From positions 4,802 to 68,801 of the forward strand of contig SGPM01000063.1 of NCBI GenBank assembly GCA_004802725.1: a stretch of DNA of 64,000 nt. Reading direction: 5' to 3'. The position numbers were made by a program, and so were the translations under genes. Every line of letters starts with the position of its first letter. Position 1 is the stretch's first letter. The notes under the pieces are model-generated. The model was not told where the DNA came from. It made no database searches and was given only the letters and a program-made list of their open reading frames with translations. Of the stretch, positions 1 through 62,700 are shown piece after piece. The stretch is from Antrodiella citrinella (Eukaryota; Basidiomycota; Agaricomycetes; Polyporales; Steccherinaceae).

Positions 1-5493
<5,493 letters not shown>

Positions 5494-25693: not shown

Positions 25694-27938
25694 CTATGAG
25701 ACGTGTACGATTTCAATCTTTGCATGGTCCCTCAGAGTCTCCGGTGCGAGTTTCCCTAGCTCATCAATAAGCGCAGGCAAAAATGTCCCCGTGCCCTTCA
25801 CATCTGCCCGCACACCCGCGAACTCGGACGCAATCGTCACCGCCAGGACCCTACGCAAAATCCCAATTAATTCAGCACAAAAATACCACGCGCATTAGTC
25901 CAGGGTGACACGGCACGTACCCTCCGATTGCAGCCAAAAACATATCTCCCCTCGTCAGTCGTCCGTTCTCCGCACCCGAGTTCGACTTTGCCGACATGCT
26001 CACGCCGGCGCAGAAGGTGGCCACGCTGGTGCCGACCATGCACCCTGAGCCGGTGATCCCTGCGAGGTAGGGGTGCCCGTTCGAGAGCGCGACGACGGTG
26101 TGCCCGTCTGAGACGTAGTCAATTTTGCCGGTGAGGACGATCACGCAGCCTGTGGAGGTGGAGGGGGTGGTGTGAGATGAGACGTCCGCGGAGGTGAAGG
26201 GGGTGAGACGTACGTTCTGCACGAGCGAGGTCCCTGATGAACCGAGCTGGGTCGGAGAACCCTGCGCCGACGCTGTCTACACCTCTGGATTTAACCTACA
26301 AAGATTATGAGCGGACATGTTATTATCTCCGGACAACTAGCGCTGCGAGGGACCCTACCTCGGTTGAATTTGCTAGCGCTGCAAGTTCACCTGCATTTCC
26401 CTTGATGACACTGGCCTGCCATGTACTAAGCAGTTCTGGCTTACCGATCAACATACGGACCGAGTGAAGCAGATTAAGTTGAGTCTACATACCGTCTGCA
26501 GCAGCCCTCCGATATGCCGTCGCGCCTACACCAACAGGATCGAACACGATAGGGTTTCTATTGAGGTTCGCCTGCTTCCCTGATTCATTCAGTTCAACAA
26601 AGATGTTGTGTTAGGAACAAAGGGAGGAGGTCCCTTACCAGCAGCTAACATGCAGTCCAGATCTTTGATCGTGCCAAAGTTGACGAGCAGCCCGCCGATG
26701 ACTTTCCCGAGGTCCTCCATCTCCTCTGTAGATGTGGCCATGATCGGGGACGCACCGAGGGCTATGGTCGCATTGGCAGATTGATTCGTGACGACTGTGT
26801 TCGTGATCTAAGGTGACTATGTGTAAGTGTGCGACCCAACGCGTGATTGCGCTGACTTGGTTGGAGTATATGATGCACGCACCTGATGGACTAATGGAGA
26901 GAAAATCTGGACAGACTCAAAAACACTGCCCGCGAGTTCTTTCAACATGTCGACTGTATGCGGATTCTCCCACCAAGGACTGGTTACGGTGTATTTGTGC
27001 GCGGCAGGTGGCTCGTAGGCCTTGAACATCTTCACCGTGTCCGCGATCTTCCGTGCTGCTGCACGAGGGTTTGTAGAGCCCACGATATCGCTGACCACCG
27101 CGACTCCGTCTAACGCTCTGCCATTCTTTGTTACCGAGCCGTGCAAACAATGTAGGGTATTGGTGGATTTGATCCCGGCTGGAACGCAACGCGTCAGAAC
27201 GGATGGATGTTTCAAAAACCGAATGCACACACCGATAGCTACGGACTTGACATCCGTTCCCTCCAACCCTTCCAACATCTTTGCGACGCCCCTCGGACCC
27301 AACAGCGGGCTTGTGACGTTCTTCGTCTTGGTACCCCACACCGGACCCACACCGACGTAATCCACGCCATCCTCCGCAGCCTTGCGCACTTGCTCCGGCG
27401 TGTTGACACTCAGACCTATGATCGTGTCTGCAGGCAACAGGGATCGGGCGATGGAGATCGGCATGTCGGTCTGACCCAAGTGCACGCCGTCTGCGCCAAT
27501 GGCGAGCGCGATGTCGATGCGGTCATTGATGATTATAGGGACACCGTGTTTCTGGCATATGGCTTTGGACTGGCGGGCGATGGTGAGGAACTATGGTTTT
27601 TGAGTTTACGGGAGGAAGATCAGCGTCTGGAGACGGGATGATGATAATATTGGTGCTCTGACCTCTCCAGTGTCGGCTGATTTTTCGCGGATTTGGACGA
27701 CTGTGACGCCTCCGAGGATAGACTGGAGGGTTAGAACGAGAACAGTTGGTTGTCACGACGCATTTGATATCATGTAGACGATTGCTTACCTCTTCGAGGG
27801 ACTCGAAGTAATCCTACGAAATGATGTGATCAGGACATCGAAGTTTTGCAGCTGTGTTGATATAAAACATACCTTGCCCGGAGGCAGTAGGTCGCGACCT
27901 GTCACCAAGTACAACGAGTAATCTAACGTAGGCTTCAT
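25694..27938 (-). CDS. THI6: Bifunctional thiamine-phosphate synthase / hydroxyethylthiazole kinase
   Basis: Joins the pyrimidine and thiazole halves of thiamine and also phosphorylates salvaged hydroxyethylthiazole. The N-terminal half is a ThiE-like TIM barrel: [15 protein letters not shown] at the start, then the phosphate/pyrimidine-binding [19 protein letters not shown] and [13 protein letters not shown]. The C-terminal half is ThiM-like: [53 protein letters not shown] and the catalytic-Cys loop [11 protein letters not shown]. The fusion order matches fungal THI6. About 540 residues in around ten exons, ending KIEIVHVS. Frames are consistent across all introns that I followed. The start at 27938 ([11 protein letters not shown]) is favoured; an upstream in-frame start in a short extension is possible. 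No riboswitch is apparent. Confidence 0.95.
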
Positions 27939-28999: not shown

Positions 29000-31900
29000 A
29001 TGTCCTCCGCCGCTGGGCGCAAAAAGTCAATCATCTCCTCCAACGGCCCCATCGTAGACGGCATTCCCGTATCGAACAACACCCTCCTCAACAAGGCCGC
29101 CTCGCAATCCACCTCCCTCTACCAGCAATGTTCTGCCCTCCGCGCTCGTCTTATGCGCATCCACGACTTCCCAGATTACTTCGCCATGTCCTCCACCACA
29201 GAGCCCTCTTCAGCACGTCGCTCAACAGACCCCGTAACCCAACTATGGGATTGCTTCGCACTCGGCGTCCCTCTCTGTTTTCTCCTCAATCTCCTCCCTC
29301 CCCCCGTCCAGCCTGTATCCGTAGACACTGCCAACTTTGACCCCACCAACGACCGCGTACGGAAGCGTGCCATTGCCCAGTTCGCTATGGGTGTTCGTCA
29401 AGTCGACGGCTGTGGTACATTCACCGTAACCGATTTGTGGGATCGTACATCTACAGACGGCTTCGTAAAGGTACGTCCGAATATCGTCTCCTTGCATGTC
29501 TCCTTGCCCTTATGGCTCGCGCCCATCTCCAGGTCGTCAACATCGTCGCTGTCGTCGTAGACAACATACCAGAAGACGCATTTGCCGAGTCACCGCCCGG
29601 CTCGCCGCCCACTCAATTCGCTGCCAAGGCTTCCACCGACGCTCTCCCCGCAGAACAACTGTCCTCTGCAATGGGTGGCTCGGAACCTCATCCTGGTGCC
29701 AATGTCACCAAGGAGCTGCTGCATACTGAAAGAAAATACGTCCAAGATCTCGAAATGATGCAGGTACGCCCGTCTGTCAACTTGTAGTCTCGCGACCCTA
29801 ATTGACCTATTGTTTGACTCGGTCCTCAGCAATACTCCAATGCCCTGGCCCAGACTAACCTTATTGATCAAGACACCATTCATCTGCTCTTTCCCAACCT
29901 GAACAAGCTTCTAAACTTCCAGCGGAGACTCCTGATCAAAATGGAGAGCATTGCGGAATTCCCTTGGACAGAACGGCGCTGGGGGTCCGCCTTCACTGAA
30001 TTTGTGAGTGTGCCCAGCTCATCAGTTTATCGATCACTTGCCTGATCTAGTCTCGGTTCGTGCTCCTTGGATTCCATGCATCCCTTCCACTCGGACAATA
30101 GGAAGAGGAGTTCGCCGTGTATGAGTCCTATTGTGCCAACTACACTAACGCCAGTGATATTCTGCTCCAAGAGGAAGCGAATCTCGAGGCGTGCTCGCAA
30201 AAGCTGGTGTGTACACCCTATTTGTCATTCTCGTGAACATGCTGACCAAACGATAATTGTCAACGCTAGTCTATCGACAGCGTACTGAACGTCAAGTCCG
30301 AGCTGCCTGCGTTCCTCATCAAGCCTGTTCAGCGGGTTTGCAAATATCCGCTCCTGTTAGAGGTCAGCATTACTTTTTTTTCTTCCAGTCATATCAGTAC
30401 ACTAAAGTCTCGGCATATCCAGAGTTTGATCAAGGCGCTTACTCCCACTGATTATGCGTACCTCGATGAGCTTAAGGCTGGGCACGCTACCGCCAAGCGA
30501 ATCACCGACAAGGTCAACGAAGAGCAGCGACGGGCAGAGAACATGGCAACTGTCAAGAACTTGGAGGGTCGTGTTGAAGATTGGAAGGGTCATCACATCT
30601 CCAACTTTGGTACGCTTCTGCTCGATGATATCTTCGTCGTCACCAAGTCGGACATGGACCGTGAGTATCACGTCTTTTTGTTCGAGAAGATCATTCTTTG
30701 CTGCAAGGAGTATATGGTGGCTCCTGGTGGCAGCAAGAAGGTTGGCAAGAGCAATTCCATTCTCAAGAAGCAAGGTGTGCCAACGCCTCTCAATATCCCT
30801 GGCGGACCTGGCGGAAAGAAGAAGCACACACCGCTTCTGCTAAAGGGACGGATCTTCCTCAACAACGTGACAAGCGCGACACCAAAGAATACGGGAGGTA
30901 TGTATTCGCTTATTGATTTTCCTCGCCGGATTTTTTACTGAAGATACCACGCAGGACAATACTCTCTTGCCGTGTACTGGAAGGGAGACGACGACCTTGA
31001 GTACTTCACGCTCCGATGCCGGAACGAGGAGCAACTGAAACTCTGGGAACTAACGCTCAACCGCCTTATTCAAGATGTTGCTGCCCGGCGGACATCTGAC
31101 AGGACCATTCAATCGCGTTTGGCACAGGTTGCACAAATCGCAAACAGCACCAGCCCAGCGCCCGCTGCCCGACAGGCACCATTCAATTACACAAGTGGCC
31201 AGATTGGCGACCAGCGGACGATGTCCATGTTCTCGCAGACGACATCCTTCTCGTCATACACTCAGCCACATCCCTACAGCAGTCGCAACCGGTATACTGG
31301 TACAGCTGTCAGCGACGAGCAGGGCCCCTTGTCATCGATGTCGTCGAACGGGCCCCAAGGCTACCCTCCTTACAACGGCTTCGACGACGTTGATCCAGAG
31401 GACGACTTTGAGGAGTACCCTCCAGCCAGTATGCCTAGCTCTGGTCGAGGTACACCCGTTGGTTCTCGCAGGTCGGAACAGGGACCGTACCCACATATGC
31501 GAAGCAGTGGTGGCGCTTCGCCGCTGCCCCCAAGTGCACCTTCCAGTGCATTCTCACCGATGCAATCCGCTACTCGGCCGTCAATGACACGCGCGTCTAG
31601 CAGTCACGCGTCCGACGTGAGTAGCTTCGGACCTGGCGTTCCCCCACCTCGTGGATCTCTTCGAAGTCAGTTCAGCGCGACGAGGCTTAGGAGCCAGTAC
31701 GATAACCGCTCGAGTGGACCGAGTCCACAACCTAATGCCGCGTATCCTGCGTCGGTACGGTCGAGGAGCGCCAGTCAACCGAGTGCGTACGTAGCACGGA
31801 ATATTCCTCCTCCGCCTCCCCTGCCTACGTCAGCAGCAACATGGGTGGACAGGGGGGAAAGCAAGCGAGGCAGTGGCTCGAGTCAATCGACTCAACCGGA

Positions 31901-32294
31901 CAGCTCTGATGGATACTCTCCTCACACAAGCTCTCCGATCACGCCGTATGGGTCCAGCGAATCCTCGCTGGCGAACGGTGCACACGGGAGGTTCGATAAA
32001 GTCGTCACGCAGGCGTCGGAGCAGCTTCAAGAACCGACGAAGGTGAAAGTGAAGGTCCACTTCCACGAAGACATTTTCGTTATTGCGGTATCGCGACATG
32101 TTGAGTATGAGGATTTGTTGGATCGCGTCGGGAAGAAGATCCGCTTGTGTGGTCCTCGGAGGGATGACGGGCCACTGCGCGTGAAGTACAAGGATGAAGA
32201 CGGCGACTTGGTCTCCCTAGGCTCGACGGAGGACGTCCAAATGGCATTCGAGTCGATGCGACCAGGATCGCAAGTAACACTGTTCGTCCAGTAA
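29000..32294 (+). CDS. CDC24: Rho guanine-nucleotide exchange factor CDC24 (Cdc42/Rac GEF)
   Basis: Activates Cdc42/Rac at growth sites to set cell polarity and hyphal growth. Domains in order: a CDC24 calponin-like region (CSALRARLMRIHDFPDYF, then WDCFALGVPLCFLLNLLPP, about residues 45-170). The DH domain begins at TKELLHTERKYVQDLEMM and includes FLIKPVQRVCKYPLLL. The PH domain runs from about NFGTLLLDDIFVVTKS, with FLFEKIILCCKE, to EEQLKLWELTLNRLI. A long Ser/Pro-rich linker then leads to a C-terminal PB1 domain (KVKVHFHEDIFVIAVSRHVEYEDLLDRV, then KYKDEDGDLVSLGSTEDVQMAF), the docking site for Bem1-type scaffolds. About 900 residues. The start follows a TCC-rich leader. All domains are complete. 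Confidence 0.96.
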
Positions 32295-40012: not shown

Positions 40013-43000
40013 CTATGAGACCTTCGCGTCACTGCCCGCTGCCATCAAGACGCTCTGAGCCCAGTCTTCGTCCCCAAAGCCCATAGTGATGGAAGGCGTC
40101 AGGGAGAGCTGCGACGGCGACCGCGGCAGGTTCTTTGGATCTGTGGTAGCAGAGAGAGAGACGGCCGATGGAAGACGGAAGCGATTCGCAACCGGAGTCT
40201 CTTGTGGTGTGGAATACAGCGACGAGATGGTTGAGTCGGTCCGTACATGCACAAGGCGTATAGTGTCTTCAGGTGCGATCTTGCTTCCATCGACCTCCAC
40301 TTCAGCAGCAGCAGCAGCGGTACCAACCAGGAGATGGTCATCGAACCCGAGGTCCATAGGTGAGGACGAGATGGGTGTAGTGAGACTAGGAGCCACAAGA
40401 TCGGACGAGAAGGTTGTCGTAGATACAGGAGGTATTTGTGGATAGTCCGACGTCATAGGAGGCGCTGAGTTCGGACTGGAGCTTGGCCGTTGCAACGACG
40501 TTGCCTTGAGATTAGGAGAGGATTTCTTGGAAAACAGGAGATGCAGGGAGGGTCGTTTGGATCGGGTGCGGTTGCCCAATGAAGAGGTAGAAGAAACATG
40601 GGTACTCGCGGAGCTACTGTTGCCTTCTGCGGAACGTAAAGGAGGAAATGAGAGGAGGAACGACTTTCGGGAAGAAAGAGGTGTATGAGGAGCACTACCA
40701 TCTGAAGAGCAGGGGAAGGGTATGGGGTTACTGATTGCTGGCCGACGTGGTACGTTGGGTAACGCAAGATCAGCATTCAAAACGATCACTGGTTCGGCAG
40801 AAATAACCAGCTCGGGCTTGGTAGGCTCGACGGACGACGCCTGACTACTGAGCGACGGTGGTTGCGAAAATGACGAGGCCTCAGACATAGTTGAAGGTGT
40901 AGCCAAGGAATCAGTGGAGGATGACAATGGAGGAGGCATGCGAGGAGATCCAAGAGAAGGCGTAGACGGACGAGTGTCTGGCGATGTTGGACCTTCAAGA
41001 GCAGAAACATATGAACCAGAGTTGCTGGATGATCGTTGGTAGATGGATGCAATAGATTGGTCGTTTGGCACATACAGAGTGGCGAGGGGATCTCTGGTAG
41101 TACCACCGCCACGTCGTGGACGAGCTGCGGGAAGGTCTGACATCTCTTCGATGGGCTTGAGGTCTTGTTTGTCCGCATTCAGCGTGATGGATGGCACTTC
41201 AGTAGTGACTTCTGGCAGTTTGGGCGGCGGCGTCCAGATCTCCTTGGAATCGCAGAATACGCGCAAGAGGGAGGGGTTCATGTTCAGACTGGGGCAAAAT
41301 ACGACAAGCAGGTTTCCGATTGGCATCTTCGTCTCTTTGCTCCTTGCGGCCGTAGCTGTAATGAGTTCAGCGACAGTGAGGAGCAAGTCCCGATGCTCTT
41401 TCGGCAAACGTGCAATCAACGCTGTGATAGCGTCGAGACCAGCGGGTGATATCGTGCGCATACCAGCAAAGTTGGGCATAGCGAGCGTCGACAGAGAAGG
41501 TGGCTTGCGTAACGAGATTCCGACTCGAGGACCCGAAGGAAGTGTTGGACCTTTCGATCCGACACCTCTTGGTGTAGCACCACCAGGCCTTGCAAGAGCA
41601 GCTTCGGCTTCAGTGTTCTCCGCTACCATGATCGTCTCAAACTGAGACACAAGAGCAGACGTCAGCAAGGACTCTGGCACTGTAAATAGGTCAGCTGAGT
41701 AAGATGTGGAGACAATAAAACCACATACACTCGCGCAGATAGGCTTTGAAGATAGACGCCACCGCATGCGGGTCGAGGTCTCCAGGATCACTTTCGACGA
41801 GGTTGTAGTCGGCACCTGTGGAATAGATGCACCATTTATCAGAAACGACCTCGCAATGGGAAGAAGGATGCGTAACTGTCAAGACTTACCTGTATCGAAT
41901 TCGGACCGAAGCTTGGCGACATGCGCGGGCCGCCCGCTGACACTGTAATTAGGCATATTGGTGAGTACACCAGTGTTCGACACCTTATAAACCTCAAGAC
42001 AAGACTTCTCACCGGAAAAGCCCCTCCTCCTGAACACCCCACTGCAGCAAATGCTGAGCACAGCGAATCACCAACGCAGGCAGATCTCTCTCCTCCAATG
42101 GTCTGATACCAGAACCACCATCGTTCGACGAAACATCCGGTCTTCGGTCGATAGATGTTTGTTGCACGCATATATCCAGCTTTCTTCCAAACACGAGTCC
42201 ACCTGCGACAGCAGAACCGGACGCGTTGAGCATTGGACCACGTAATCTCGTACCCAGGTTTGGACCTGAAGGCATAGTCAAGGCCTCGCTCTCCGATGCT
42301 GACGACGCTGTGGACGAGGCGACACTCCACGTCCCCGAAGGTGCGTTCGGTGTTCCACGCTTTCCTCTCCATCCAGACTTCGCCGAGGGTTGGTTGATGA
42401 CCTGCGGGGCTGTCCGAGCACCGAGACCGTCTTCGGGTCTGCTCGTATGGCAGTGTTGAGAACCGTTGCTCATTTGATCAACGGAGGAGGTCGACGAGTA
42501 TGCCGACTGTGAGGAGGAACTAGAGCTGAATCCGCCCCACACACGGTGTACTCTCTTGCCAATGCCGATGGCGATGCCAGCGGCGGTTGGTGCGAGGCTA
42601 CCTGTCATACTGACAGCGGTTTGACGGAATGAAGGAGGGTGAGAGACGGAAGGATGATTGGCAGTCGCTACCCGGGGTTGTGGTGGTGGGGGAGTAGGTA
42701 GCGGACGCTCCGCGTTTACACGACCTGCCGATGACGGCGGCGGCGCAGTTGTCGCTGACCATGCTGCAAGTCGGCCCCGTATGTTGCTGCTTGTACTGTG
42801 TGCGGCTCCAGGCGTTGATGTGGGTGTAATGAAACCTTCCGCGGCTGCTCTGGTGAGGGTTGGAGTGTTTTTGGCAGACATGATGGGCGAGATCGGGGAG
42901 CTGGGGGAGCTGAATGAATGTGGTTCTGACGTGATGAGCGGTTCAGGAGAGCCAGACTTCATTCGAAGACCATAGCCAGGACTTAACGACATTGAACGCC

Positions 43001-54744: not shown

Positions 54745-56810
54745 ATGCAGACTCGTTCACATCGCGGCACCGTGCTGGGAAAGCGCGACGCTCCCAGCGA
54801 GTCGTCGTCGTCCACGACATGCGATTCTTATGACGACGGTGTACAGCTGATGACACCACAATCATCTCCAAATCCAAAGCGTATGAAGACTTCGTCCACG
54901 CTTTGTGAAGGTGACTGGAACAAAGAAAATATACCCCCATTCAAGATCGAGGTTCTCAACTCTTCACCTTCCACAAGGGCCACGAGGTCTTTGCGGAGAA
55001 CAAGTACCATATCAGACGCGCATTCGACGCCACGGGCTGGACAATGTGAGTCTCACCGTTCGTCATTAATGCCTTGCAAATTCTTAGTCTATCGTAGCTC
55101 TTCGCAGACATAACTCCATGTCAAGCTTGGACCCACGTACACCAGTCTCGGGTCCTCCACACATCTCCCTCGCTACGCCACCTTCTACTCCTCCATCTGC
55201 TCTTCTACCCATCAGTGCTAGAGCACGCGCTCTCCTTCGTGCCACTTGCAACAACGCCGGCGGCCTTGCTGGCCGCGCAGATGAAGTTGCCACTGTCCAG
55301 TGCTTTGTTCGGGCGCTCCTCCTCTCGCCGGCAAATGTTGATGGCCCCGAATATTCGGTCCTGTACATCTCGGGATCTCCGGGTACAGGTAAAACTGCTC
55401 TCGTGAACACAGTGCTCAATTCGATGCAGTCGGACCTGGCTGTCGCTGAGGTCGAGTCCATCGCTGTCAACTGCATGGCTCTGAACAGCGTCGAAGCTTT
55501 GTGGATCCGGCTCGTTGAGGCTCTAGGCGGCTCTTCTAAGACTAAGAAGGTCAAGGAGACGCCGTATAAAACTTTGAGCAGACTTCTGTCCGAGAGGCAG
55601 TCAAAATGGTAAGAGCATTCCTATTTCATCTCGAGAGATGTTGCTGAGTGTCTTCTCCAGCATTATACTTCTCGATGAATTGGATCACATCGCCTCGTCG
55701 GCTCAGTCTCTCACGACGCTCTTCACACTCTTCCATCAGCATTCCCTTTGCATCCGTCTCATTGGCATTGCCAATACCCATACCCTAACCTCATCATCGA
55801 ACTCTACCGTATCCGTGGAATCATTGCGCCACGTTCAAACTTGCCATTTCGCGCCCTATGCTCCTCCACAACTCCTTGACATCCTTCACAAAAGATTGTC
55901 TCCGCTTTCTGGTGACAGTTCTTTGGAGTCCGTGGACAAGTTCCTCCCTCGAGCCACTTTGATGCTTTTGACAAAGAAGATCGCTGCTCAGACGGGTGAT
56001 GTTCGTGCGTTGTTTGAGGTCCTCCGTGGCGCCATCGACATCGCCATGATCTCGGAGACATCGTCCAATCCCATGGCTGCACCTACGCCTGCAGTTACAC
56101 CTTCGCATGTTCTTGCTGCGCTGAAGGCATATACACCCGCTGGTACAGCATCCCGAGCCACCCCCTCTACGACTGCCTCGCTGAATAGCGAGTTGGTTGC
56201 CAAGGTTCATAACCTTGGACTGCAAGGTCGCCTTGTCCTCCTCTCGTTGATGCTTGGAAGCCGTCGTGTCGGTCTTGGACTTGCCCTTTCGGGCCCTACC
56301 AATCGCACTCCCTCTACTCCCACGAAAAGGCGGAACAACGCGACTGCCAAGGCGGACAACGCGGTGTGTAATGGTGTAGACATGAACCAGCTCCACGTCT
56401 ACTACACTACCATCCTCTCACGCTCTGACACTGAGGTATTTACACCTGTATCAAGGAGCGAATTCGGCGATCTCGTTGGCGTTCTGGAGACGGTCGGCCT
56501 AGTCTCCATCTCATCTTCTTCGGGTCTTCCTTCCACTCCCACCAAGTCTGGTCGTAAAGGCTTGCAACGAACAACCTCGTTCGGTCCTAGTTCCAACACG
56601 GGCGGTCAAGTGGTCCGGTTGGCTGAGGGCATTCGATTGGACGAAGTCACTCGAGGGCTTGGAATCGACGCTGACATTGTCGGCGGGGATGTTCGGTCCC
56701 AGGAGGTCAGAGCAATTGCTGACAAGGAGCGAGCGCGCATTGCGAAGGATGCCAGGGTTGTCCCCAGTGTTGCATATTTGACCGTGTTCGAAGGCGCCAT
56801 CGAGAATTAA
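54745..56810 (+). CDS. CDC6: Replication licensing ATPase CDC6 (ORC1/CDC6 family)
   Basis: AAA+ ATPase that loads the MCM helicase on ORC-bound origins. A disordered, basic N-terminus (MQTRSHRGTVLGKRD) carries several SP/TP sites (TPQSSP, TPRAG, RTPVSGP), likely CDK targets. The AAA+ core begins at LLRATCNNAGGLAGRADEV. Walker A is YISGSPGTGKTAL, Walker B is CIILLDELDHIAS, and sensor 1 is LIGIANTHTL. The sensor 2 region is KKIAAQTGDVRALFEVLRGAID. A winged-helix C-terminus follows (NQLHVYYTTI, then SEFGDLVGVLETVGLVSI). Three exons of 301, 511 and 1150 nt give 653 residues. The start at 54745 is the first ATG of the conserved-type N-terminus. All ATPase motifs are intact. Three MCB boxes lie upstream. 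Confidence 0.95.
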
Positions 56811-57118: not shown

Positions 57119-59406
57119 TTACTTGGAGCCTACGTACATACTGAGTTTCACGTATGGGTGTTTCATTGCGATACCCCGAATCTGTGCTAGTTCAACGGGA
57201 TGTGGTAAAGCAAGTATCTCTTGAATACACGATGGCAAAGCGTCTGGCTTGGGGGGCGTAGAGAGAAGTGCAGAAAGAAGAGCGATATGTTTACTCTGTT
57301 CCCTTAGCTCTGCGTCGTCTTCGGATCCTACAATAGAAATGAGTTTGGTAGGAGATACGACCACTGCTGCACGCACCTGTCACACGTGTATTATCATCCT
57401 CGTAGGAAGGTACATACTTGCTCAAGTCAGAGTTCCGATTGAATGGATGCATGAGGACGACTTACTTGCAAGATAACATTCCTGACCGAATCGGACAATG
57501 ACCATGACCGGACAGCGATAGTGTCATCCACATCTGAAGGCGGTAGACCAACGATTATTCTACCGGAAGGATCGACTCTGTAGCTAGTACTCTGTGAGAA
57601 ATGCATAATCAGATAATGCACATATGCCACCAAACCAGTTGCCACACAGACCTCCACGTAGTCTTGAAGTTTGGCATCAGATAATTGTAATTCAGTTCGC
57701 AGGTATGCAGTCACGTCCTAGAAGGGGCTCGTTTGACTGTTTGTATCATAAGTGCGCGAAGGATCTCTTACCATAACATCTGTGTACTGCATGTTATCTT
57801 AGCATCATTCGTAACTTGACGAAACCAAGTACTTACAAACCGAAGGATTTTCTGAATGCACGTCGCGATGCTCGAATCAACTAGCAGGTTCCTAATGTAG
57901 GCGCGAAGTGGGATCGTGTCCACTTTGAAAGGTCAAGAAAGATAAAATCTGCCAATATGCAACACTCACCGTCGCCCATGACAACGAAGGGAGTCGGCGT
58001 CCCAGGTGCAGATATGCCCAGTAAGTGAGGTAGATTTGTATGCCTGGAAGTTAACGCACGAGTGAGCTTACCTGCCGCATACAGCATAAAAACTCTGGCC
58101 GCCAAGACGTACTGTATATTGCGTAGGATTCCAACATCTCTCGTCCAACTCTGCATCGAGGTGTTCGAAAAGATGTCCATGAAATCAGATGGAGTGTCAG
58201 CTTACATTTTGTGCACTACCATCATTTGGAGATGCTTCGTATCTCTTCAATAATGCGGGTTGTGTTTTTGAAAGCTGAATTTCCACCGCCCCGGAGAGCC
58301 AACCGTCTTTGATGCGACTACGACCTTTCAGCGTAATGTCGGACTGGTGAAACACACGATACTGAACAAGATTGAGTATCAGGAGACAGTGCAGAGTACT
58401 TGGTACTTACTGCAGGTTTGTCGAGTAAGTCATATTCTGAGTTCTCGGCCGTAGGAGATGGTGACTGAGCGGATGGTACGGATTCAGTCTGCTTGGGTAC
58501 ATGAGTACGACCGAGAAAGATGGTATGCGTGAACGAACCTCGGACGAAGAATCATAGACCCAATCATTCTCTGGCTGTGTCACGATGGCGTGCGGCTGGG
58601 ATAGTACGGTATCATGATCAGTCACTATACTGATATCCTGCTCTTCCTGATTCAAAGAGGTATCTTCGAGTACGCTGAAAGAGGCCTCAGACACATCTTC
58701 CGGTTCGTCTGTGTACAACAAATTGGATGTCTGTAGCACCTGAGCGTCCGGAGTTCTCTCATCCAGCACCGATGAACCGGACGCTCGGCCGACAGTATAA
58801 TGTATGTTCAAAACAGTGAAAATCTAGAACAGTGAGGGTCAGCGACAAGGCCCGGGAGACAAGATGCTCCAGATAAATATCTACCTGAAAAGATCTTGCA
58901 GCGTCGTCTAATTCTGCGTTGTAGTCTGTCAACGCACCGGAAATGGCAGCCTTTCGGAGGATGCGAGAATGCCACTTGTTCTGGGTCTCTTCTATGAGAC
59001 TCTTATGAATCGAGTCCAATGTGCTAGCGAGGCTTAGATCGCACACACCAGTGCGAAGCCAATCTGAACTTACGATTCAAATTTTCGCAGATTCTTGACA
59101 AGTGAAGCTGGCGCCGTATCCCATTGATCGCCCATCTGAAGTTGGATTTCTGTCAGGAGGTCGAGGCATCGCTGGGCAAGACGATAACATTCTGCTTGGT
59201 TTGTCTTCATGCTCTATTAGTAATGAATGTAAGTATTGATTGTACTGTAATTTTCAAAAAGCTACCTGGATGGTTTCAAAAATGAGCAGCAATATCGAAG
59301 CAGCTGCACAAGCGGGCGGGCACGAGTCACTGATGTCTCTTGCGAGACGAGAGGCTGAAACTGTTGCCTTCAACAGATTCTGCGCAGTCGAGGTAGTTCG
59401 AGACAT
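57119..59406 (-). CDS. MLKL-like protein: N-terminal helical bundle plus kinase-like (pseudokinase) domain
   Basis: The first ~150 residues (MSRTTSTAQNLLKATV, AAASILLLIFETIQSMKTNQ, CLDLLTEIQLQMGD, TLDSIHKSLIEETQNKWHSRILR) form the helical pattern of the MLKL-type N-terminal domain of many mushroom proteins. An acidic Ser-rich linker follows (EPEDVSEASFSVLEDTS). The kinase-like region begins DITLKGRSRIKDGWLSGAVE and continues with a lysine in PALLKRYE where the ATP-binding lysine belongs. After it come WTRDVGILRNIQHTNLPHLLGIS and TPTPFVVMGDVD. Where HRD and DFG should be I see SYRVDPSGRIIVGLP, so catalysis is unlikely. A ~70-residue C-terminal helical piece ends near IAMKHPYVKLS; the last residues depend on whether a GT there is used as a donor. 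About 500 residues in a dozen exons. In animals and plants this architecture is a membrane-active cell-death effector; a fungal role is unproven. Confidence 0.7.
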
Positions 59407-59727: not shown

Positions 59728-62700
59728 TCATTCTGCGGATCTTTTTGATACACGACTTCTCCACCACTCCGCAACATCTATCCGAATCAAGAGATCAGCC
59801 AAACAATCGCTCACGCGCGATGCTTGTTTCGCGGTAGGTAATTGAGCCTTTGCAAAAGGGCGCCCTGCCATGGTACCTCGTTCCACGAGGGCAGAAAGCA
59901 CTTTGACCTACAGCAAGATGAACAAGTGTATGTGGAGAGACGACGAGTCAGGATGAACATACCAAAGTCGTGACTTTGAGGCGAAACTGTTTGAACAGCG
60001 TTTCGAGAGGAGATACGGCTTGATACTCCTTTGTTTCCCCAGTGGCCACATCACTCATGAGGAGGCCGAACTCGAGGATAACTTCCAAAACACCACGCAA
60101 CAGGTCTCCCACCGGCTTCTGGCCAGACCGCAAGAGGCACGCGCTCAGAATATCATCCATCACGTTGGAGTGGTAATCCGCGAGGGCAAACACGTCAGGA
60201 AATAAACACGCGTTCGTAGAGAAGCCCTCGGAAGGAGGCGAGAGCACGTCGAGGAAGGCATCGAAGTTGCTTCTGATCGCAGTGTCGTAGACATAGGAAC
60301 TGAGAGCAGTCACAAATGCGTGTGCGACGAAACGAAATTGGAGAAAGAGTCGGTGGGAAGGTGTAAATGTTGGAAAGAGTGGAGGGTTGCTCCTGCGAGT
60401 CATACGGAACAACGCTCGAACAACATTATCAACTGGGAAGTGAGATAAATGTCAGGATCATCCAGGTATCATGTATGGCTGACTTACCTCGCATCAACCG
60501 TAGATTGAAGGCGAAGATTCGATGGTACTTCGAGAGTATCGTGGGCGTAATCAGGGTAGCCAATGGTTCCGGTGGTTGATACTCCATATACAAGAAGTCT
60601 AACGCTCTGTATTTCGTATGTCAATAACAGGTAGATCGTAGGTTAAGAATGTGGCACTGACTCCATCGCTGAAACGCCAAGATGTCAGTGTATAGACAAT
60701 GCGGGACAGTCGCGACACTCACAGCGAGCTTTGAGCCATTTCGCATCACCGATGGTAGGAAGATCTCGGATAGCAAACCCTAGTCGCCATTCTGCTTCCT
60801 GTAGAATGCGAGCTCGACCGTCAACCTCAAGACCAGCATGATCTACTTCAACAATATGTGACAACCGATACTCCAGGTTGAGCGAGTCAATGATTACTGT
60901 CCGCAGAAAAAAACTCAGGCTTGCTCCCGCTGGTGGCCACGAGCCGTCCGGAGTAAGCTCTTGCGAGATGCCAATCGACCACGACGACTCAGCCGGTGAA
61001 GCTGTGACTTGATTGGAATGTGAACGGGCCCGCCTTGCACTAGCTGCATATGTGCCGACATGTTCGGCAGTACCAAAGGAGTCGGAGAATAGCGCTGTCT
61101 GCAGTGTCGACTTGAAAGCGTATGACGTGAGGAGTAGGTAGGATCGTAGCAGGCGTAGGTGCAACGGAAAGTATAGATAAGACGTCGGCGAAAGGAAAAG
61201 GTGTACCAGTGCACTAGAAAGTGTCTTGATGTGGTCGGTGAGAGGTCTGAGTACAACGTCTGTGAGGTCGTGTACAGTTGGCGTGAGTGAGGGGAGTGAT
61301 GCAGGGAATGAGTCGACGAATGGCTTGTACGCGGACTGGCTAGGCCGCGAGGTGACGGCAGAGGCTGGAGATCCGGGAAGGCCACCAGGCTCGAGATCAA
61401 ACACCTCAAATATCTGCATCTCATCTCGATATGATGAACTTGCTGAGGAGAATGACGAAAACGCGTCTCGTCGCATAGAAGCTACTGCAGGTAGAGGGGC
61501 TTGTTCATCGCAAAATGCAGCCTCGACTTCCTCGCTTGTCCAAAACCAAAATATGGAAGGAAGGAGGGAGGAATTGGTGAACAGGGGGTGATCTGGCTGA
61601 GCGGCACGGAGTAGCACCAAGGATTTCCGAGCACGATTCAGGGTTTGGCCTAGATCCCCAGTGAGGAAGGTGGGAAATGTCTTCTCGTCTCCGAAAAGAT
61701 CCAACGAGACGTCCTTAGTCACGTCCTCGTCCTGATCTCCAAGCAAGGTAGAAGAACGGTGATGAGACCGAGTACTCCCAGAATGTGTTAAGTACGAAGG
61801 GGTCAGCTTTGACGGATAACCGACCCAGGCGCAAATTTCTTCGAAGTACACCTTAGCCGTTACAGTGAAAATATATGCGATCTGTGCGGTGTTGTTGGTT
61901 GTGGACTGCTTCTCGATATGCGTATACAAGTGGTCGTATATGTGAGACAGTAAATCGGTGTCGGACTTCGGTAGTGACCGGAATTGATATGGGGAAAGAG
62001 TGGTCGCCTGACAAGGGATGGTAAGTGATGATCTTGCAGAGTGATACGTCAACACTGACAATACCGCAAAACTCTGCTAGATCGTTCAACCTGGCCTCGA
62101 GGTCAGAATAAGAAGTCCATGTTGCAGTCAGAGCATGAACCGAAGATGCCGCTTCATGTACATGATGCAACAAGCGCGATCCCGCCACGAATGTCATGTT
62201 GTACGCCAGTATGGATGATATTGAATGGACAAAAGCATGGTAAAGAGGGCTGAGATAGCTGATACCAGACATCAACAACATTGTCAATCATATAATTGCA
62301 ACCCGTGCTTACCCTGAACGCAGATCACTGACGAGAACGTCCAATCGTCGTACCAATGTACCAATCAAGAGAAATCTGCTGATCAGACTACCACGAGACG
62401 TTTGAGGCAGACTTAAGGTTGACCAGCAACATGTACGGACCTTTCACTGACGACTTCGTCGCTTCCAGTTACCACTATGACACCGCGTTGTTTGGGCAAC
62501 ATATCTCTGAGCACAAAAGTTTGCCCAACAGGGTCCCATATATGCAATGATGACGATACACCTAATATTGTCCAGCGCAGGGCTTCAAATAAGCCATCTG
62601 GGGTAACGTATTTGCGATATTCGAGAGGGCCTCTAAGTTGTGGGCGTGCACTATCATAAGCAGTCAATACACACGATCCGAAAGCAGAACATACGAAGGG

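Follow-up and report, generated by a model that had tools for sequence, protein, structure and literature searches.

A shortened MLKL-like gene in Antrodiella citrinella joins an MLKL_N helical domain to a kinase-like domain without catalytic motifs

The window analyzed here is a stretch of 64,000 nucleotides from the basidiomycete Antrodiella citrinella (contig SGPM01000063.1, positions 4,802 to 68,801). It carries a gene for a protein with a helical MLKL_N domain at the front and a kinase-like domain behind it. An earlier note, made from the letters alone, had described an MLKL-like protein and suggested either a stand-alone necroptosis-like effector or a regulator with the same architecture. 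Both the helical domain and the degenerate kinase half were found, but the window copy ends after the kinase-like part and is a shortened paralogue within a widespread family of Agaricomycetes.

The coding region is interrupted by 12 introns of 47-89 nt, all with GT-AG borders. It lies on the minus strand; its start codon at 59406 and its stop at 57119 are as first annotated, and the spliced protein contains all five strings quoted at that time (AAASILLLIF at residue 34, LLKRYE at 299, ILRNIQHTNLPHLLGI at 322, TPTPFVVMGD at 342, and YRVDPSGRIIVGLP at 411). One stretch was revised: the first model read through VCVATGLVAYVHYLIMHFSQ, which is taken here as an in-frame intron because its 20 residues occur in none of the 11 aligned homologues. 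The Pfam scans, the first search for relatives, and the first alignments of the window protein were made on the 554-residue model that includes these extra residues. The weakest intron of the model is 58538-58492, which has the donor GTTCGT, lies in a variable linker, and has a junction that is not common to the paralogue in the same genome. The last acceptor, at 57377 (intron 57465-57377), is a second weak point, and it was picked from ten candidates because only two of them yield a C-terminus resembling that of the nearest relative. The window protein has identities of 51% and 49% to its two closest relatives and retains many invariant columns of the bundle and the kinase-like part.

The helical domain was identified with Pfam, where the window protein passes the cut-off of MLKL_N (PF22215) with 40 bits against 27 (E 3.6e-10). 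In the first alignment, all 12 sequences, that of the window protein among them, match the same domain at E <= 1, and three of four relatives scanned singly were above the cut-off, with P0009 slightly below it at 26.5 bits. When residues 1-152 were compared with 177,635 PDB sequences, the top five entries were chains of the human MLKL helical domain, aligning window residues 41/42-140 to chain positions that begin at 15-26 and end at 114-125. As these chains are near-identical and each has an E-value of 0.3-0.36, they count as one weak match. A profile of the family scored 32.5 against a 65-residue piece of mouse MLKL (hhalign probability 79%), whereas the highest score among 100 shuffles was 21.3 and the reversed sequence scored 9.6; this piece was selected since it had already been aligned in an earlier search. 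MLKL entries also turned up with three overlapping queries. The profile searches, which had been proposed as a check on the N-terminus, returned MLKL_N and no unrelated helical family.

The structure predicted for a homologue, P0006, shows the helices of the bundle in the expected order. Mapped onto the window protein, it also predicts an additional helix ahead of the MLKL match, which starts at residues 41-42; such a helix is described for the BaMLKL domains of basidiomycetes. The first helix of the bundle itself has a mean hydropathy of 1.63 over 19 residues. A value of 1.6 is attained by 50 of 104 relatives, and not by the three nearest short ones. The earlier note had seen in AAASILLLIF a hydrophobic helix suited to membrane contact; it is a bundle helix common to the family, and taken alone it was rejected as a sign of membrane insertion.

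The second half follows a protein-kinase fold in the P0006 model, so that the structure check suggested at the outset did not yield a fold lacking a kinase. The 50 fold matches shown for this model were filled by kinase chains, so the comparison covers the kinase part alone and leaves the bundle outside; the absence of an MLKL row among these 50 is uninformative for the same reason. A string search for GxGxxG, HRD, DFG, and APE found none anywhere in the window protein, in agreement with the claim that HRD and DFG had been replaced. The corresponding places were compared in an alignment of 104 of 120 proteins, from which 16 fused, partial, or poorly covering ones were left out. The position of the glycine loop reads GWW in most sequences (G in 96, W in 96, and W in 97 of 103) and GWL in the window protein. 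An Asp, set by alignment opposite the Glu of plant receptor kinases in helix alphaC, is found in every one of the 98 sequences with a letter there. Outside the short clade described below, a helix carrying QD occupies the place of the catalytic loop (Q in 97 and D in 98 of 99 sequences), and in the long clade the DFG place reads GLP (G in 98, L in 99, and P in 99 of 100), a replacement that is family-wide. A Ser or Thr stands two residues ahead of an invariant Arg in the would-be activation loop of all 100 sequences outside the short clade that have a letter there (56 S, 44 T). Three other short relatives have S, T, and S at this position, and the window protein alone has Ala. The beta3-type lysine that had been pointed out is kept in the window protein as K301; it was rejected as a hallmark of the family, having K in 65 and L in 27 of the 103 sequences with a letter there, and R in the long paralogue of the same genome. 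As judged from its motifs, the second half is a pseudokinase.

Between the two domains lies a linker with 24 D/E, 2 K/R, and 35 S/T/P in 108 residues, as acidic as it had been described. In the P0006 model, a long helix at 130-164 is followed by residues 165-233 with a predicted local distance difference test score (pLDDT) mostly below 50; brace helices were not seen there, and the low confidence cannot exclude one. As a separate observation, an LC3-interacting-region-like motif (acidic plus aromatic-x-x-aliphatic, e.g., DEFVLV) matched by a strict pattern occurs in 20 of 105 linkers, where 4.5 are expected from shuffles, and this excess may reflect nothing beyond shared descent.

The gene is not unique. 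A search with P0006, in which the 7995 best candidates were scored, found at least 118 proteins at E <= 1e-5 (query included), of which 99 have PF22215 and 110 have at least 670 residues. Several were automatically named 'Mixed lineage kinase domain-containing protein', and the named members, as far as recognized, are presumably all Agaricomycetes; the classification was looked up for five species. A quick tree with a midpoint root was built from 51 proteins: 49 of 120 selected for spread, the window protein, and the paralogue of its own genome on contig C430. It separated a short clade from the 47 others with a Shimodaira-Hasegawa-like approximate likelihood-ratio test (SH-aLRT) support of 100. 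This clade is composed of the window protein, Cristinia P0001, Steccherinum P0002, and Panus P0117, and the same four species also have long copies (C430, P0012, P0066, and P0006). Of its members, the window protein is 534 residues long and the other three have 490, 528, and 685, the longest retaining part of the C-terminal region. The clade's stems of 0.37 and 0.64 and end branches of 0.49-0.87 compare with a median end branch of 0.36, and the grouping could have been aided by long branches. Both Cristinia sonorae copies (P0001 and P0012), listed under Agaricales in NCBI, group with the Steccherinaceae of Polyporales; a mislabeled genome or a wrong placement is possible.

The long form continues into a beta-rich C-terminal domain, modeled with pLDDT > 90 over most of P0006 residues ~511-770, found also in relatives, and absent from the window gene; it had no Pfam match in the members scanned. 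The idea that this domain lies just downstream was rejected after a tblastn search of the whole window with the C-termini of four relatives (E <= 1), which matched only the modeled exons and one chance-level place near 1.5 kb (E 0.40). The next gene is on the opposite strand, and its open frame ends 308 bases from the window gene.

The second family gene of the genome was found on C430 at 39.0-42.2 kb, with the window protein and a Trametes relative as queries. Its model, of 779 residues, matches the window protein at 183 of 509 aligned positions (36% identity) and runs well past the window stop (the beta domain comes after 511 in P0006 numbering). In total, 11 of the 12 intron junctions of the window gene fall in the same alignment column as in the paralogue; the C430 model is self-built, and for the middle exons the agreement is between two self-built models. 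The C430 model agrees with the public protein EUX98_g2807 (P0027) over residues 1-290 and over P0027 301-680. The public model of P0027 omits exons of the kinase-like domain and extends beyond the last splice site of the C430 model. When PF22215 was searched over the whole genome, only the window's own exon was found (E 0.056), and the C430 paralogue was missed, so the profile is unsuited to counting MLKL_N genes. A search with one profile (A2) found fewer relatives than the single-sequence query (9 vs 11). A weak match (L035, E 0.075) falls within a PK_Tyr_Ser-Thr match.

Table 1. Features of the MLKL-like gene and other genes in the window (window coordinates).
Feature	Position	Strand	Details or basis
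Whole coding region	57119..59406	minus	13 exons, 534 aa, spliced translation
Exons 1-7	59406-59266, 59213-59074, 59023-58885, 58823-58539, 58491-58411, 58361-58206, 58150-58113	minus	
Exons 8-13	58043-57970, 57922-57837, 57786-57772, 57717-57652, 57591-57466, 57376-57119	minus	
In-frame GT-AG intron	57651-57592	minus	would add 20 residues absent from 11 aligned homologues
Extra N-terminal helix ahead of bundle, residues 8-27	59326..59385	minus	P0006 model helix 18-39 mapped onto window protein (predicted)
Hydrophobic first bundle helix, residues 30-48 (PPACAAASILLLIFETIQS), across intron	59211..59319	minus	P0006 model helix 42-60
MLKL_N (PF22215) match, residues 41-142, across introns	58818..59286	minus	Pfam
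Acidic Ser/Thr/Pro-rich linker, ~residues 153-263, across introns	58359..58787	minus	composition; low pLDDT in homologue model
Kinase-like (pseudokinase) domain, ~residues 264-520, across introns	57164..58358	minus	
Beta3-type lysine K301	58245..58247	minus	alignment, mapping
Asp319, helix alphaC, place of canonical Glu	58136..58138	minus	D in 98/98 sequences with letter
QD 403-404, helix at HRD place	57661..57666	minus	alignment
GLP 422-424 at DFG place	57541..57549	minus	alignment
Ala433 at would-be activation-loop Ser/Thr	57514..57516	minus	alignment
SMC hinge gene	2209-3078	+	
Thiamine monophosphate synthase gene	26820-27590	-	
PB1/PH protein gene	30942-32291	+	
RhoGAP gene	40016-41878	-	
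Cdc6/ORC-like lid gene	55578-56807	+	flanks MLKL-like gene
Probable gamma-tubulin complex component	60688-62076	-	flanks MLKL-like gene; match below cut-off

A kinase neighbor was suggested by a fused protein of Mycena indigotica (P0097), in which a long MLKL-like protein (MLKL_N at 26.9 bits, cut-off 27) continues into a TKL kinase that has a C1 match slightly below cut-off; it may represent two adjacent genes in one read-through model. The one close relative of this kinase found in the Antrodiella genome lies on C430 at 46.4-48.0 kb and is 68% identical over 298 residues, followed by the next by E-value at 32-36%. This TKL/C1 kinase gene and the long paralogue share a strand and are separated by about 4 kb, with a PIH1-like frame between them. 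Two neighbors suggested by fused proteins were checked, and this is the one that is linked; the linkage could be explained by conserved gene order without shared function. Additionally, P0059, P0100, P0119, and P0120 also carry a hotdog thioesterase (PF03061), which stands in front in P0059 and P0119, and a thioesterase gene is possibly a second conserved neighbor in other Agaricomycetes. The acyl-CoA thioesterase (ACOT) part of P0059 had no match in the Antrodiella genome, and C430:27-55 kb had no match to any of the ACOT parts; as such genes have introns, absence is unproven in either case.

At about even odds (roughly 0.5), the window gene encodes a stand-alone MLKL-type protein whose membrane-active bundle is held by, or answers to, its pseudokinase. 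In such a protein, the pseudokinase would act as a switch that restrains or triggers the bundle, as in MLKL, with the flexible acidic linker replacing the brace helices, and the freed bundle would insert into or permeabilize membranes. The response would be regulated cell death or membrane remodeling in defense or non-self recognition. The switch of the long paralogue may be thrown by the linked TKL kinase. The window copy would more likely be triggered by binding or oligomerization than by phosphorylation of the activation-loop site, since it has neither the beta domain nor the conserved Ser/Thr.

A number of results weigh against an MLKL-type protein of this kind. Basic and acidic residues are equal in number, 16 each, over the first 150 positions, with no positive excess for membrane binding. 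The structure is a prediction for P0006, which is 37% identical to the window protein; the Pfam family PK_Tyr_Ser-Thr stayed below its cut-off (15 bits vs 23.1, E 0.015), and hhalign gave a probability of 5% against a TKL kinase. An Asp, that of QD, is kept near the catalytic loop and is a candidate substitute for the Asp of HRD. Among whole-protein strings in 104 relatives, D[FLWY]G occurs in 84, [HY]RD in 40, and GxGxxG in 14; these appear to lie away from the catalytic sites (GDLG within the C-terminal domain, FYRD within helix alphaE), although not each was checked. The RHIM (RIP homotypic interaction motif) core [IV]Q[IVLC]G is absent from the window protein, where HRAM (HET-s-related amyloid motif) and other fungal motifs were not scanned. 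Around the gene, no NACHT, NB-ARC, Pkinase, fungal Pkinase, or PK_Tyr_Ser-Thr was among the matches listed for the window contig, which was searched exon by exon, with the best 122 of 453 and 136 of 358 candidates scored for the two kinase families.

It is possible, if not the reading we favor, that the gene encodes a regulator with a retained architecture, in which the pseudokinase serves as scaffold or decoy and the bundle provides for oligomerization or membrane tethering, without killing. The wide occurrence of the family in Agaricomycetes, its usual length sufficient for a third folded domain, the lack of a basic excess in the first 150 residues, and the ordinary neighbors in the window (Cdc6/ORC lid, gamma-tubulin complex match below cut-off, SMC hinge, and RhoGAP) are consistent with such a role, but the helical domain is of the executioner type of animals, plants, and fungi, according to the accessible parts of PMC12881547 and PMC9815663. 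An unlikely alternative is that the short clade is losing its ancestral function. The beta domain is gone, Ala433 replaces the activation-loop Ser/Thr in the window copy, the stems and ends of the clade are long, and its four members stop at differing places; yet the frame is open across 13 exons with GT-AG borders, and the identity to the nearest relatives and the many invariant columns that are kept also argue against decay. A chance MLKL_N score of an unrelated helical bundle joined to a degenerate kinase appears very improbable. Single-sequence PDB matches were no better than E 0.3, P0009 and P0097 scored slightly below the Pfam cut-off, and the structural comparison did not reach the bundle, but the Pfam E-value, the profile score of the MLKL piece, which exceeded those of the reversed control and of every one of 100 shuffles, and the recurrence of MLKL entries with three overlapping queries would hardly be expected of it.

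Beyond the MLKL-type reading of the single gene, a rather doubtful extension is an Agaricomycete kinase-MLKL module. Here the TKL/C1 kinase, linked since before the split of Mycena and Antrodiella, would phosphorylate the invariant Ser/Thr and free the bundle, and the short paralogue would be a derived executor outside that control. If true, it would amount to a RIPK3-MLKL style of switch in fungi. The executor architecture of animal necroptosis is known in animals and plants, and the fungal literature consulted centers on HeLo/HELL domains in NOD-like receptors (NLRs) and on amyloid-triggered effectors. A mushroom family of bundle plus pseudokinase that comes in long and short forms, one of which has a TKL kinase nearby, offers a way to ask whether the pseudokinase switch predates animals or had repeated origins, and it supplies test pieces, namely bundles that have or lack the third domain and that have or lack the would-be phosphosite.

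The architecture is already known in outline. The phrase 'fungal MLKL' was not found in the literature searched, where the term MLKL_NTD does occur, fungi included. The Agaricomycete family, its third domain, the short clade, and the kinase linkage were not found in that literature either, which left subscription papers and preprints mostly outside. Like vertebrate MLKL, the protein is a single chain in which a kinase fold devoid of catalytic motifs comes after a helical MLKL_N domain, and it differs from MLKL in one extra front helix, in other replacements at the catalytic sites, and in that no RIPK3 is known. The activation-loop site of vertebrate MLKL is phosphorylated by RIPK3; the equivalent is Ser/Thr in the loop of the fungal relatives and Ala in the window protein. 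MLKL has a two-helix brace between bundle and pseudokinase, in contrast to the acidic stretch of ~110 residues in the fungal protein, which is disordered in the homologue model. Plant MLKLs, reportedly described by Mahdi et al. in 2020, similarly join a HeLo/MLKL_NTD and a kinase-like domain in one protein, a likeness drawn without aligning the plant proteins here. The brace of MLKL is named in the accessible part of PMC8433767, and wheat Pm13 is placed among plant MLKL-type proteins in that of PMC10951266. Within the fungi, a survey of early-diverging lineages reported homologues of the MLKL family in Glomeromycotina alone among the fungi in its set, and these had Sel1 repeats (PMC8778642, in the part available). 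HET-S and HELLP of ascomycetes have a membrane-targeting bundle of the same superfamily (PMC12881547 and PMC10197012, from partial texts), whereas the trigger of HET-S is a C-terminal prion-forming domain and the C-terminal part here is kinase-like, without a RHIM core. The MLKL_NTD (BaMLKL) domains of basidiomycete NLRs carry an additional N-terminal helix, as stated in the available part of PMC9815663. An MLKL_NTD with this helix is common to both, but there it heads NLR receptors and here a kinase-like domain. HELL domains joined to kinase or pseudokinase domains are also stated for fungi in the accessible text of PMC12881547, and these share the general architecture of the window protein.
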